Assembly: GCA_029060545.1 (NCBI GenBank)
Contig: JAIDTT010000082.1
Span: forward strand, 25,294-89,293
Reading direction: 5' to 3'
DNA length: 64,000 nt
Origin: Paramuribaculum sp.
GTDB lineage: Bacteria; Bacteroidota; Bacteroidia; Bacteroidales; Muribaculaceae
Part shown: piece after piece, positions 3,135 through 7,071 of the stretch
Layout of the letters: each line of letters starts with the position of its first letter
Position numbering within the stretch: position 1 is the first letter of the stretch
The notes under the pieces: generated by a model
The model's input: the letters and a program-made list of their open reading frames with translations, nothing else
The model's database searches: none
What the model was told of the DNA's origin: nothing
Position numbers and translations under genes: made by a program

Positions 3135-4169
3135 CTATCTATCCTTCATCGCTATTATGGCGTTACTCCAGTCAAGTACTCGCCGCATAGTAGGCACACT
3201 GACTCCACAGGTGTCAGCAAGTTCTACATATTTCTTAAGCCCACAGTTAAAATCTTCAATGAAGTATCGGCTTGAGAAGTCCGGAAGCCATCCGCCCTCC
3301 ACCTCCTTTACTGGCATACGTATACCTTTGAATGAATCAATCGAACGCAACTTTCGTGAAAGCGATGCGGCATTGGTCTGCTCATAGTAGTCAAGCACAT
3401 ACGGCAAGCATTCATTATCTATCGGAAGCGCCTCTATGATCCTATGCAGATCCGCATCAAGCGCAATATATACTTCGGAAGCATCGTCAGTCCATTCTTC
3501 ATAGAAGAGGGGATTCTGTGTCAATACCTCTCCATTCCAACCTTCAAGCCAGGTGGATATACGAGCCGGATGGAGCAAGGGATTACTATTGGATAGCGTC
3601 ACCTCAAGATAACTCGACATCAATTGTGCAGGTAAGCCAAATGCTGTTTCAACCCACTGCCTGAAAGCTTCTTTATCAACCTGTTCAGCGTTCTCCACCG
3701 CTATCTGGCAGGACGTCTTATAAGCCTTTATTGCTCCGACCTTACCATATTCCGAGACTTTACCTATAAATGGTACGCGCTGGAATCCCCAAAGAGGGTA
3801 ACGGTCTCCTAATATTTTCAATGCGTCAAAAAAGAATCCGTTTGAGCAAAATACCCCACCGACAAATGCGCCGGATTTCAGATGGGGCATAATTCGTTTA
3901 ATTTCGTTGGCATTGACAAATCCCGGCACTGTAACTATTACGACATCAGCCGGAGACACGGTCTCCTCCGGAGCCGAAGATATGGTGCCAAGCGTGACAG
4001 CCATCTCTTCTCCGTCAGGTAATATATATTTGAAATCTCGCGTCCACTTATCCGGATTGTTGGTAAGGATATTAACTGTGTAACCTTGGATAGCGAGCCA
4101 AGGGGCAATAGCATGGCACTGACCGCCGCCGCCACATATACAAATAGTCTCAATATTCCCCATCTTCAC
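3135..4169 (-). CDS. NAD/NADP octopine/nopaline (opine) dehydrogenase-like protein
   Basis: N-terminal dinucleotide-binding motif ICICGGGGQCHAIAPWLAIQGYTVNILTNNP; C-terminal region with NPLLHPARISTWLEGW, like the opine dehydrogenase substrate domain. Confidence 0.65.
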   Translation of the reverse strand: MKMGNIETICICGGGGQCHAIAPWLAIQGYTVNILTNNPDKWTRDFKYILPDGEEMAVTLGTISSAPEETVSPADVVIVTVPGFVNANEIKRIMPHLKSGAFVGGVFCSNGFFFDALKILGDRYPLWGFQRVPFIGKVSEYGKVGAIKAYKTSCQIAVENAEQVDKEAFRQWVETAFGLPAQLMSSYLEVTLSNSNPLLHPARISTWLEGWNGEVLTQNPLFYEEWTDDASEVYIALDADLHRIIEALPIDNECLPYVLDYYEQTNAASLSRKLRSIDSFKGIRMPVKEVEGGWLPDFSSRYFIEDFNCGLKKYVELADTCGVSVPTMRRVLDWSNAIIAMKDR

Positions 4170-4236
4170 GCGGCTTTATAATTATATGTAGGGGACAAAG
4201 CCACAAATGCTAATTCACATTCTCGCAACTTGGAGT

Positions 4237-5175
4237 TCAAAATCCGGCGGCAATAGCGGTGATGGGGGGGGTAATTTGTTGATTCATAATATTTTCTATT
4301 TGAAAAGCAAAGTATACATCGAAAAGAGCGAGGCCGATATTGTAAGACAAAATGCGCTCGCTGTCAGATTGTCGCCCAGCAATCTCGCCGGAGAGAACCT
4401 GACCCAGTTCGCCGAATTGCCTGAATTCATTGAAGTATTTGAATCCTTTCACGTGCCCTTCATCGTCGGCAAAAACCTTATCAAACACAGTATCACAATT
4501 CTGAAATCCACGTGTATGCACAGGCACTACAAGCACTCCGGGGTTGAACTTTGTGGTATCATCCACCAAAAGACCGTCAGCATCCGTAATACAAGATACC
4601 ACCACATCGGCTCCCTCTACAAGCTCATCCATCGTATCGCAAATTACGAAAGTAGTGTTCGGAATATGCTTATAATGTTCTACTACCCTTTCAGCCTGAT
4701 CCTTATAGCGTTTTAGCCGAATCTCTAATTGTTTATCCGTATTGGTGGCAAAAAAGCAGTCAAGCGTGGCATAGGCCATTGCCCCGAGCCCAATAAACGA
4801 ATAGACGCGTGCCGATGACGATCTGAGTGTATTGATCGCAAGTGTTGCCACAGCGCCGGTGCGACGAGCTGTTATCCAGTCAGTATTCACAAGCGCCGTC
4901 ATTTCACCTGTCAGCGTATCAAACATCACCATCTCACTCCTCAAGGCAGGATGATTGCCTTTCACGCGGCTTACCACCTTGCAGCCAAATGTATGAAACT
5001 CATCAGGAAGCATACACGGCATCGTATTAAAAAAATCATTTCCGCGAGGATGCAGCGATATTTTCGGCGGAAGCTGGCATAACGTTTTAATACTAAATGC
5101 CTTTCTCACCCATTCCACACTTTGCTCAGGTGATATGTTCAACTTTCGTATCTCCTCGGAAGTGATAATCTTCAT
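4237..5175 (-). CDS. Ornithine cyclodeaminase/mu-crystallin family protein
   Basis: Family-like motifs: TGEMTALVNTDWITARRTGAVATLAI, SFIGLGAMAYATLDCF, DVVVSCITDADGLL. Confidence 0.75.
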   Translation of the reverse strand: MKIITSEEIRKLNISPEQSVEWVRKAFSIKTLCQLPPKISLHPRGNDFFNTMPCMLPDEFHTFGCKVVSRVKGNHPALRSEMVMFDTLTGEMTALVNTDWITARRTGAVATLAINTLRSSSARVYSFIGLGAMAYATLDCFFATNTDKQLEIRLKRYKDQAERVVEHYKHIPNTTFVICDTMDELVEGADVVVSCITDADGLLVDDTTKFNPGVLVVPVHTRGFQNCDTVFDKVFADDEGHVKGFKYFNEFRQFGELGQVLSGEIAGRQSDSERILSYNIGLALFDVYFAFQIENIMNQQITPPITAIAAGF

Positions 5176-5179
5176 TCTG

Positions 5180-6991
5180 TCAGAAATTTTTTAGGACTTC
5201 AACTAACTTGTGGTTGTCGGCGCGGTCGCGTATAGCTATACGCACATATTGTTTATCTGTCGGAAAGCCCTTCTTTGCCGAGCAGTCCTTTATAAATATA
5301 TTGTATTCGGTAAGCAACCTTAGAGTAAGTTGATAGGAGGTATATTTACCGGTAAGTTCACAGAGAAAGTAATTGGCTTGCGAAGGGATCACACGCAAAA
5401 ATGGTATCGCGTCCAGTTCTTCGCGGAAGATGTCGCGCTCTTCGCGGAACTTTTCGCACGAATCAGCATAGTCCTTTTCATACTTGCCGTAGATCTGGAG
5501 ATAAAATTCGGCAAATGAATTGATGTTCCAGATACCTACATCCTTTCGCATATAGTCGATCAGCGCCTTATCGGCCGATGCCAATACTCCGAGGCGGAGT
5601 CCGGGCACACCATAACTTTTTGATATCGATTTCATTACACACATCAAAGGATGTGCTTCCAGAGTATCGTTATAGAGCAACGTCGCCTCCACGGCATCAT
5701 CAGCAAAGTCAACAAACGATTCATCTACAATGAGCCTTACACCATTGCATTCAGCCCACTCGGCAAGTTTCTCCAACCCCGCTCTGTCTATAAAATTACC
5801 CGAAGGATTGTCTGGGTTAACAAGGAGCAGATTCTCTACCGGATTGGCTGAATAGTAACCGATAAGATCATCGACTGTATAGGAAAAGTCATCGTTTGAC
5901 GGGTGGAATGCCACAATTCGCTCTGCCGGCAGGCGATTGGGATACTCTTCAAAGGTGGGATAGGTGATACCTATCCTACCGGAAAGATATCCCATCAGAC
6001 TTTTGATAAGTTCGGCTGCTCCATTGCCTACAACCACATAATCGTGTCGGAGCGAAAAGTATTTGGCTGCCAATAGCGAATTTACCCCCATACCCGACGG
6101 ATAGTCGCGAAGCAAAGGCTCAAAGTTGGCCTTCATTTCATCGATCATCCTTTGGCGAGGGAAATAAGGGTTGACCAAATAACAGAAGTCAAGCAACCCC
6201 GGGTAACGCCAATATCCGCCATAAGATTGCTGAATCTTCTTCAGCCTTTGCTCAGGCTCGGCAAAGATTGCCTCGGCAATACGCAGATCCTGCACGTCGT
6301 CGATCTCATACCAATGCATTCCAGTAATCGGCAGAGCCTTTATACCCGTTGCATCGATAAGGGTAATCACGCGAAGCACCTGCTCGTAATACTCATTCTC
6401 CCCGAGCACACGGATATACGCTTCAAGGAAAGGCAGATAGTGATTTACGATAAATTCCCTTGAGAACTTATATATGTTGACCGTCTTATAATAATAGTCT
6501 GTGTCGCTGTACTTAAACGCCTTCTTCGGTATGAAATTCACGATATTGTTATCGTCGTCAATGCGCACCATCGTGCCGTCCATCCACGTCTCATACTTCG
6601 ATATCAGTGCACAGTCCTTATATTCACTTTTTAATGCCGCTTCAAGTACCGAATCCTCAAAAATCAAATCCGATTCAAGCAACAGCGTCTCCTCCTCGGC
6701 CATAAAATCGCGTGCAAGCCACAGGGAGTAGATATTGTTTGTCTTATCGTAGACAGTATTTTCCACAAACTCAATCGGTGCCGTCGGATAATTCGCCAGC
6801 AGATAGTCCTTCAGTTTATGCCCCTCGTAACCGATCACCACAACAATCCTCGAGAGGTTTAGCGTACCAAGTTGGTGGAGCATCCTGTCGATCAGACGGA
6901 CACCATTCACCTCAAGCATACATTTAGTATTGTCGGCTGTAAACTCGCCCAACCGGCGCCCCATTCCTGCGGCAAGGATTATTGCTTGCAT
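5180..6991 (-). CDS. Bifunctional LicC/PntC-like nucleotidyltransferase fused to a HisC/CobD-like PLP-dependent aminotransferase/decarboxylase
   Basis: N-terminus MQAIILAAGMGRRLGEFTADNTKCMLEVNG plus NNIYSLWLARDFM; C-terminal LLVNPDNPSGNF, LIVDESFVDF, MKSISKSYGVPGLRLG (PLP lysine region). Confidence 0.85.
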   Translation of the reverse strand: MQAIILAAGMGRRLGEFTADNTKCMLEVNGVRLIDRMLHQLGTLNLSRIVVVIGYEGHKLKDYLLANYPTAPIEFVENTVYDKTNNIYSLWLARDFMAEEETLLLESDLIFEDSVLEAALKSEYKDCALISKYETWMDGTMVRIDDDNNIVNFIPKKAFKYSDTDYYYKTVNIYKFSREFIVNHYLPFLEAYIRVLGENEYYEQVLRVITLIDATGIKALPITGMHWYEIDDVQDLRIAEAIFAEPEQRLKKIQQSYGGYWRYPGLLDFCYLVNPYFPRQRMIDEMKANFEPLLRDYPSGMGVNSLLAAKYFSLRHDYVVVGNGAAELIKSLMGYLSGRIGITYPTFEEYPNRLPAERIVAFHPSNDDFSYTVDDLIGYYSANPVENLLLVNPDNPSGNFIDRAGLEKLAEWAECNGVRLIVDESFVDFADDAVEATLLYNDTLEAHPLMCVMKSISKSYGVPGLRLGVLASADKALIDYMRKDVGIWNINSFAEFYLQIYGKYEKDYADSCEKFREERDIFREELDAIPFLRVIPSQANYFLCELTGKYTSYQLTLRLLTEYNIFIKDCSAKKGFPTDKQYVRIAIRDRADNHKLVEVLKNF

Positions 6992-7063: not shown

Positions 7064-7071
7064 CAAAGGTA
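7064..7071 (-). promoter_or_regulatory. Bacteroidetes-type -7 element (TACCTTTG) upstream of the three-gene operon
   Basis: Reverse complement of caaaggta, ~70 nt upstream of the ATG at 6991. Confidence 0.5.

Follow-up and report, generated by a model that had tools for sequence, protein, structure and literature searches.

A cytidylyltransferase-CobD-like fusion with opine-dehydrogenase-type partners: a candidate cassette for an opine-type amino-alcohol phosphate on surface glycans of gut Bacteroidales

Cytidylyltransferases joined to PLP enzymes are known from phosphonate metabolism. FrbH, which belongs to the FR-900098 pathway of Streptomyces, unites an N-terminal cytidylyltransferase and a C-terminal PLP decarboxylase in a single chain; its substrate is a phosphonate, and its product goes on to N-hydroxylation and acetylation. 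According to two accounts (PMC8976061, PMC8007912), cytidylylation is followed by decarboxylation, and the amine is modified while the later intermediates remain on CMP. In PntC-AEPT of Treponema denticola (Tde1415), the cytidylyltransferase is joined to a class V AEP transaminase, again with a phosphonate substrate. A CDP-amino-alcohol donor is also employed in the LicC-LicD/Wzx phosphocholine decoration (for example in P. mirabilis O18), which uses imported choline, a LicD transferase and Wzx/Wzy assembly (PMC8027243). The CobD-like fold is found in stand-alone enzymes that decarboxylate Ser-P or Thr-P (Cj1436, SMUL_1544 and CobD). Cj1436 decarboxylates Ser-P and Cj1437 makes serinol-P (PMC12409886), the product of Cj1436 being used as a glucuronamide and not via CDP; SMUL_1544 governs norcobamide formation, as worded in a title cited in PMC6461909. 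Finally, N-[(R)-1-carboxyethyl]ethanolamine phosphate occurs in a Proteus mirabilis O-polysaccharide (PMC9630907). No genes for this compound were found described in the open-access literature, and the main text of a Proteus serotyping paper makes no mention of ethanolamine genes. The Proteus serotype that bears it is O14.

The locus studied here lies in a stretch of 64,000 nucleotides from Paramuribaculum sp. (contig JAIDTT010000082.1), referred to as the window. Three genes follow each other on its minus strand: the fusion gene (5180-6991, an ORF of 603 aa), the OCD gene (4237-5175, 312 aa) and the ODH gene (3135-4169, 344 aa, with a GTG start and an in-frame ATG two codons later). Their ORF coordinates confirm the gaps of 4 nt (fusion/OCD) and 67 nt (OCD/ODH) given in the initial annotation. 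The motif that it had placed ahead of the genes is also present, as the Bacteroidetes -7-like TACCTTTG at 7064-7071 (minus strand, read 7071-7064), with 72 nt between it and the fusion gene's start codon; its role as the promoter of the trio is only plausible, because no TTG is seen at the usual spacing of 19 nt and there is no obvious -33 partner. TANNTTTG is over-represented in the window (44 observed, 19.7 expected). Two plus-strand genes of the adjacent polysaccharide locus converge on the trio and do not share an operon with it. The Wzz-like chain-length gene (970-2997) is backed by weak NCBIfam matches to chain-length determinants and Wzc, while the polymerase/ligase-like membrane protein gene (1-957 in the window, starting 329 nt to its left) is so called from position and appearance, with no family match in Pfam or NCBIfam.

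By its domains, the 603-residue protein combines a cytidylyltransferase of the LicC/PntC type with a PLP enzyme of the CobD type, the likeness to FrbH being one of domain layout. Pfam places NTP_transf_3 at residues 3-121 and Aminotran_1_2 at residues 309-600, and the AF2 model (pLDDT 90.4) has its best full-length Foldseek match in PntC-AEPT (6pd2), from which it differs in that its C-terminus is CobD/HisC-like. The best PDB matches of the cytidylyltransferase domain (residues 1-245; 6257-6991, minus strand) are PntC (6pd1, 6.8e-12) and LicC (1jyk, 5.1e-11). Residues G9xGxR13...K23, D108 and E229-x-D231-D232 are identical in 36/36 aligned fusions, and K23 aligns with the catalytic lysine of PntC, K25, which corresponds to K38 of FrbH (PMC6697681). 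The PLP domain (residues about 249-603; 5183-6247, minus strand) matches 6oux (phmmer, 1.1e-37) and CobD (1lc5, 2.3e-29); its key residues are the PLP lysine K458, D423, N323, R584 and R588, with K458 found in 35/36 fusions and D423 and R584 in all 36. The nucleotidyltransferase-CobD/HisC fusion proposed in the initial annotation is thus borne out by Pfam, PDB matches and fold, and the active sites of both domains, whose inspection it had suggested, are invariant at K23, D423 and R584. The annotation recognized no precedent for the three genes, and none was found described for the exact trio in the open-access literature; the layout of the fusion itself is already known from FrbH.

The best NCBIfam model for the fusion is CobD (TIGR01140), at 163.8 bits and thus below the family cut-off of 290.55 bits; the CobD-like domain could be a transaminase or take phosphothreonine instead. 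In the corresponding alternative, which we consider unlikely, O-phospho-L-threonine would yield 1-amino-2-propanol phosphate, or dihydroxyacetone phosphate would be transaminated to serinol phosphate, and CDP-aminopropanol or CDP-serinol would then be N-alkylated. Besides the CobD model, which points to L-Thr-P, a TMt of 0.85 to CobD (1lc8) and the serinol-P made by Cj1437 are consistent with this scheme. It is opposed by the best match of the domain in both sequence and fold, SMUL_1544 (6oux; TMt ~0.84 to chain B), which we take to be a Ser-P decarboxylase, and by the substrate of FrbH, L-2-amino-4-phosphonobutyrate, a phosphonate isostere of phosphoserine. Moreover, phosphoserine is a universal intermediate, whereas phosphothreonine requires a dedicated kinase. 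The position of CobD R323 is occupied in the fusions by Lys or Ser, the equivalence being read from the phmmer alignment.

The other two proteins belong to unrelated families. The OCD protein (Pfam OCD_Mu_crystall, PF02423, 2e-29) is predicted to be an imine reductase of the ornithine-cyclodeaminase/mu-crystallin family, with an uncertain reaction; its best match in a profile search is the P2C reductase 6t3e, followed by SbnB (4m54), and Foldseek matches include 6t3e, AlaDH, mu-crystallin and SbnB. K66 and R105 are retained. True ornithine cyclodeaminases are marked by a catalytic Asp/PGK region, which is replaced here by a conserved family-specific motif, H220-T-R-G-F-Q-N-C-D228 (HTAGFQNCD in one member; equivalence assigned by eye), and the protein does not qualify as an ornithine cyclodeaminase proper, its nearest matches in profile and fold being P2C reductase, AlaDH and SbnB. 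The ODH protein is a member of the opine-dehydrogenase family (Pfam Octopine_DH, PF02317, 7.8e-29, above the cut-off), with reductive N-carboxyalkylation as its predicted reaction. It matches octopine dehydrogenase (3c7a) at 7.6e-31, and H200, R301 and D306, invariant among the aligned homologues, align with H212, R324 and D329 of that enzyme. The likeness to octopine dehydrogenase and to the SbnB/P2C-reductase families covers the fold and, for ODH, the H-R-D catalytic residues, but the amine partner, an amino acid in those enzymes, is here probably CDP-ethanolamine or phosphoethanolamine, and the OCD motif is divergent.

The relationship between the fusion and these reductases was followed in 198 genomes from the family to which the host belongs, 44 with the fusion and 154 without it, kinship being ignored in the association tests. 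OCD or ODH is present in 42/44 fusion genomes as against 2/154 of the others, a linkage far beyond chance. ODH is the only partner in 18 of the 44 genomes and OCD in 21, while both are found in 3 (the genome of the window included) and neither in 2, so that the two reductases mostly exclude each other. At least 21 OCD/ODH swaps can be counted on the fusion tree, and in four MAGs NTase, CobD and ODH form a triple fusion (83-98% identical, with the same short join). The conserved unit is the fusion with ODH or OCD; the three-gene unit of the initial annotation is one version of this recurrent partnership, the exact trio being rare (4/109 loci). In 26/109 loci no reductase lies directly downstream of the fusion, and many of these have one elsewhere. 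Conservation of the genes without linkage, which the annotation had named as evidence against its proposal, gave a mixed but favourable picture, as unlinked genes still mostly co-occur in the genome. Unlinked ODH/OCD copies mostly lack LicD within about 8 kb (exceptions are L158, L163 and L166), so that their presence alone is no sign of a further decoration locus. Overall, a survey of bacterial genomes yielded at least 570 related fusion loci.

This near-obligate co-occurrence, together with the direct ODH fusion, argues for an intermediate shared between the fusion and the reductases, and hence against a scheme in which the fusion supplies plain CDP-ethanolamine to LicD while OCD and ODH produce an independent amino acid of the opine type, to be attached through an amide bond to a uronic acid or in some other way. 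Such a scheme would suit three surveyed genomes (L104, L120 and L132) that have the fusion-LicD layout and no ODH or OCD anywhere, as well as a Fusobacterium vincentii locus (L167) with fusion and LicD and no recognised ODH/OCD nearby; amide-linked amino acids are also common in O-antigens. No amide ligase was noticed beside the trio, however, and we regard this scheme as distinctly unlikely. The family genomes also bear on the possibility, suggested by the match in fold and layout to PntC-AEPT and FrbH, that the fusion activates an AEP-like aminophosphonate as in those pathways. A Rhizobium plasmid does carry NTase, CobD-like and ODH genes near a PEP mutase, but the search for PEP mutase was negative in the host's own genome and in 42 of the 44 fusion genomes, the 2 positive ones representing no enrichment (p = 1). 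A phosphonate pathway is thus strongly disfavoured, to the point of being very improbable, and the absence of PEP mutase points to a phosphate ester as the probable substrate.

Candidates for the missing transfer and export steps are found just outside the window, on the same contig. The LicD gene, the only one in the genome, extends from -3951 to -3112 in window coordinates, 3.1 kb left of the window and ~7-8 kb from the trio, and overlaps by 4 nt a Wzx flippase gene (-5381 to -3948); a Wza-like gene and a glycosyltransferase-like gene also lie to the left. LicD and a flippase thus lie together in the polysaccharide locus beside the trio, as expected of a LicC/LicD pathway. Of 101 loci, 72 have LicD within about 9 kb of the fusion, 80 have either LicD or a PF04464-like transferase, and 56 have Wzx, but LicD is common without the fusion too (42/154 genomes). 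With LicD, Wzx and glycosyltransferases as the recurrent neighbours, the alternative product offered in the initial annotation, an opine or metallophore for secretion, goes unsupported, and we hold such a compound, akin to staphylopine or to SbnB products, to be extremely improbable. ODH and SbnB-like OCD families do occur in metallophore pathways, and in a P. mirabilis record (L172) ODH adjoins a cysteine-synthase-like gene outside any O-antigen cluster; yet the genes next to the trio showed neither an exporter nor a receptor for metallophores, and a cytidylyltransferase would be superfluous in such a pathway.

The central proposal of the initial annotation, that the fusion both produces an amino-alcohol phosphate and activates it as a CDP derivative, and that the reductases provide an opine-type group for a surface glycan, emerges as the best-supported reading through the conserved partnership and the LicD/Wzx linkage, its enzymology being predicted from homology. 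In the form that we judge to be somewhat more likely than not, the cytidylyltransferase domain would move CMP from CTP onto O-phospho-L-serine and the CobD-like domain would decarboxylate the product to CDP-ethanolamine, all in one polypeptide, although the domains may act in the reverse order. ODH and/or OCD would then join the free amine to a 2-oxo acid, for example pyruvate, and use NAD(P)H to reduce the resulting imine to CDP-N-(1-carboxyalkyl)ethanolamine, with CMP as the handle. To judge from gene position, LicD would transfer the phospho-group to the O-unit, Wzx would flip it, and the Wzy-, Wza- and Wzz-like proteins would build and export the polymer. Several observations count against this model: the CobD-like score below the family cut-off, Lys or Ser at the position of CobD R323, the divergent motif of OCD, the loci and genomes that lack a reductase, the frequency of LicD outside fusion genomes, and the presence of both OCD and ODH in the window, which is more than the scheme needs; possibly the two give opposite stereochemistry or different side chains, and both act here. 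The window system would differ from that of FrbH in its PEP mutase-free genome, its reductase partners and LicD as the likely consuming enzyme, and from LicC-LicD systems in a donor probably derived from a phospho-amino acid and N-carboxyalkylated.

More tentatively, and as a suggestion a little short of probable, we propose that these loci represent an undescribed pathway widespread in gut Bacteroidales, in which an FrbH-like enzyme makes CDP-ethanolamine from phosphoserine, the interchangeable and unrelated ODH and OCD carry out N-carboxyalkylation on CMP, and LicD adds the opine-phosphate decoration. The chemistry of an opine-type ethanolamine phosphate is known from the Proteus O-antigen, and the cassette offers a first testable gene route to it. 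If true, the logic of FrbH (CMP activation, decarboxylation, amine modification) would not be confined to phosphonate antibiotics but would apply to ordinary surface glycans as well, and the coats of abundant gut commensals would be predicted to carry an unrecognised charged decoration, with a bearing on phage receptors and immune recognition.

The trio is encoded on the minus strand in the order fusion (6991-5180; 603 residues, two domains), OCD/mu-crystallin-family reductase (OCD, 5175-4237) and opine dehydrogenase (ODH, 4169-3135), and the ORFs are separated by 4 and 67 nt, in agreement with the gaps of 4 and ~67 nt in the initial annotation. Its reading of the first gene as a nucleotidyltransferase-CobD/HisC fusion is also borne out: residues 1-245 form a cytidylyltransferase domain whose closest solved structures are PntC and LicC, and residues ~249-603 a CobD/HisC-like PLP domain closest to SMUL_1544 and Salmonella CobD. 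AlphaFold models the protein with confidence (pLDDT 90.4), and the model's top full-length structural match is the PntC-AEPT fusion. K23, D108 and D423 are kept in 36/36 homologues, and the PLP lysine, K458, in 35/36. A fusion homologue at L043:9039-10859 has Gly in place of the PLP lysine and is probably decayed in the PLP half.

The OCD-like and opine dehydrogenase-like assignments hold as well. OCD is closest to pyrroline-2-carboxylate reductase, alanine dehydrogenase and SbnB, with a conserved motif of its own where ornithine cyclodeaminase has its motif; ODH retains H200/R301/D306, equivalent to H212/R324/D329 of octopine dehydrogenase, and has an unusual Rossmann motif (GGGGQCHA). At window:3135-4169 and L031:7737-8786, two loci that also carry OCD, the dinucleotide motif of ODH is non-canonical and reads GGGGQCHAIAPWL where GGGxLGxV is usual; L032, with both reductases, has the usual motif.

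Among 198 genomes of the host family the fusion occurs in 44, OCD in 24 and ODH in 23; all 24 OCD genomes and 21 of the 23 ODH genomes also have the fusion. At least one reductase is present in 42/44 fusion genomes versus 2/154 others (Fisher test, 5e-38, which ignores kinship). Since fusion and partner are unlinked in several genomes, the association is not merely one of gene order. Where the fusion is present, OCD and ODH tend to exclude one another (ODH only 18, OCD only 21, both 3, neither 2; p = 3e-7). The neighbourhood check proposed earlier was run on 109 distinct loci of family and GTDB genomes in which the sequence downstream of the fusion was long enough: the next gene is ODH in 47, OCD in 31, both in 4, a fused ODH in 1 and neither in 26, and in 8/12 genomes of the last kind in the GTDB set a reductase lies elsewhere. 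The partnership recurs, with a reductase adjoining the fusion in most loci; the complete trio is rare (4/109). At least 21 OCD/ODH exchanges were counted on the fusion tree by a quick method, and four MAGs (L103, L105, L107, L109) encode a single NTase-CobD-ODH chain of 943-946 aa, 83-98% identical, with the same short join. Co-occurrence, mutual avoidance, exchanges and triple fusions together suggest that OCD and ODH have equivalent jobs on the fusion's product.

On a Rhizobium sp. 007 plasmid (L168), NTase, CDP-alcohol phosphotransferase, CobD-like and ODH genes stand separately in a row, so that the NTase, CobD-like and ODH functions travel together in another phylum too; PEP mutase and methyltransferase genes are close by, the functions perhaps act on a phosphonate, and an opine-type phosphonate cluster is possible. 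Plasmids of Rahnella and Erwinia (L169, L171) carry a fusion homologue followed by CDP-alcohol phosphotransferase, HAD, ATP-grasp and MFS genes. On Priestia megaterium pBM700 (L170) a homologue of 33% identity lies near DXR and AAC(3)-like acetyltransferase genes, a setting that recalls a fosmidomycin/FR-900098-like cluster carrying self-resistance. Near relatives of the Bacteroidales fusion, with ODH or OCD, in two Akkermansia-labelled MAGs (L131, L137; Verrucomicrobiota) reflect either transfer or a binning error. In L038, L039, L041 and L065 the fusion is just 3' of myo-inositol-1-phosphate synthase, with ODH in three of the four, a CDP-alcohol phosphatidyltransferase nearby, GHMP-kinase-like and large putative hydrolase genes following, and no LicD in these stretches.

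LicD (PF04991) lies within ~9 kb of the fusion in 72/101 loci, LicD or a CDP-glycerol-glycerophosphotransferase-like protein in 80/101, and a Wzx-type flippase in 56/101; genome-wide, LicD is present in 36/44 fusion genomes versus 42/154 others (p = 9e-11). The only LicD of the window's own genome lies 3.1 kb beyond the window's left edge (contig 91:21342-22181); it overlaps a flippase gene by 4 nt and is followed by glycosyltransferase-like, Wza-like, polymerase-like and Wzz-like genes, the last reaching the trio. LicD, Wzx and Wzz are profile matches; the other three labels were given by eye from sequence. Of the polysaccharide neighbours first proposed, the Wzz-like gene is supported by weak profile hits and the polymerase-like one keeps a label by eye. 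Loci that pair the fusion with LicD but lack a reductase (L104, L120 and L132, and one from Fusobacterium vincentii) may add plain phosphoethanolamine.

L-2-amino-4-phosphonobutyrate is the phosphonate isostere of O-phospho-L-serine. FrbH, identical to our fusion in domain order, cytidylylates the former and then decarboxylates it to a CMP-aminophosphonate, and later steps of the FR-900098 route act on CMP-bound intermediates (PMC8976061, PMC8007912). Because PEP mutase is absent from the window's own genome and from 42/44 fusion genomes, the natural substrate should be a phosphate ester, yielding CDP-ethanolamine. We infer that O-phospho-L-serine would be cytidylylated and then decarboxylated to CDP-ethanolamine, both substrate and order being presumptive; Ser-P decarboxylation for capsule is known from Campylobacter Cj1436 (PMC12409886). 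Neither this kind of fusion nor the enzyme families nor the class of product is new; their combination and its distribution appear undescribed in the open-access literature searched. ODH or OCD would N-carboxyalkylate the amine of CDP-ethanolamine with a 2-oxo acid (acid and stereochemistry again presumptive), and LicD would move the group onward to a putative surface glycan: N-[(R)-1-carboxyethyl]ethanolamine phosphate, reported in a P. mirabilis O-polysaccharide (PMC9630907), is just the type of product that the window's cassette would make.
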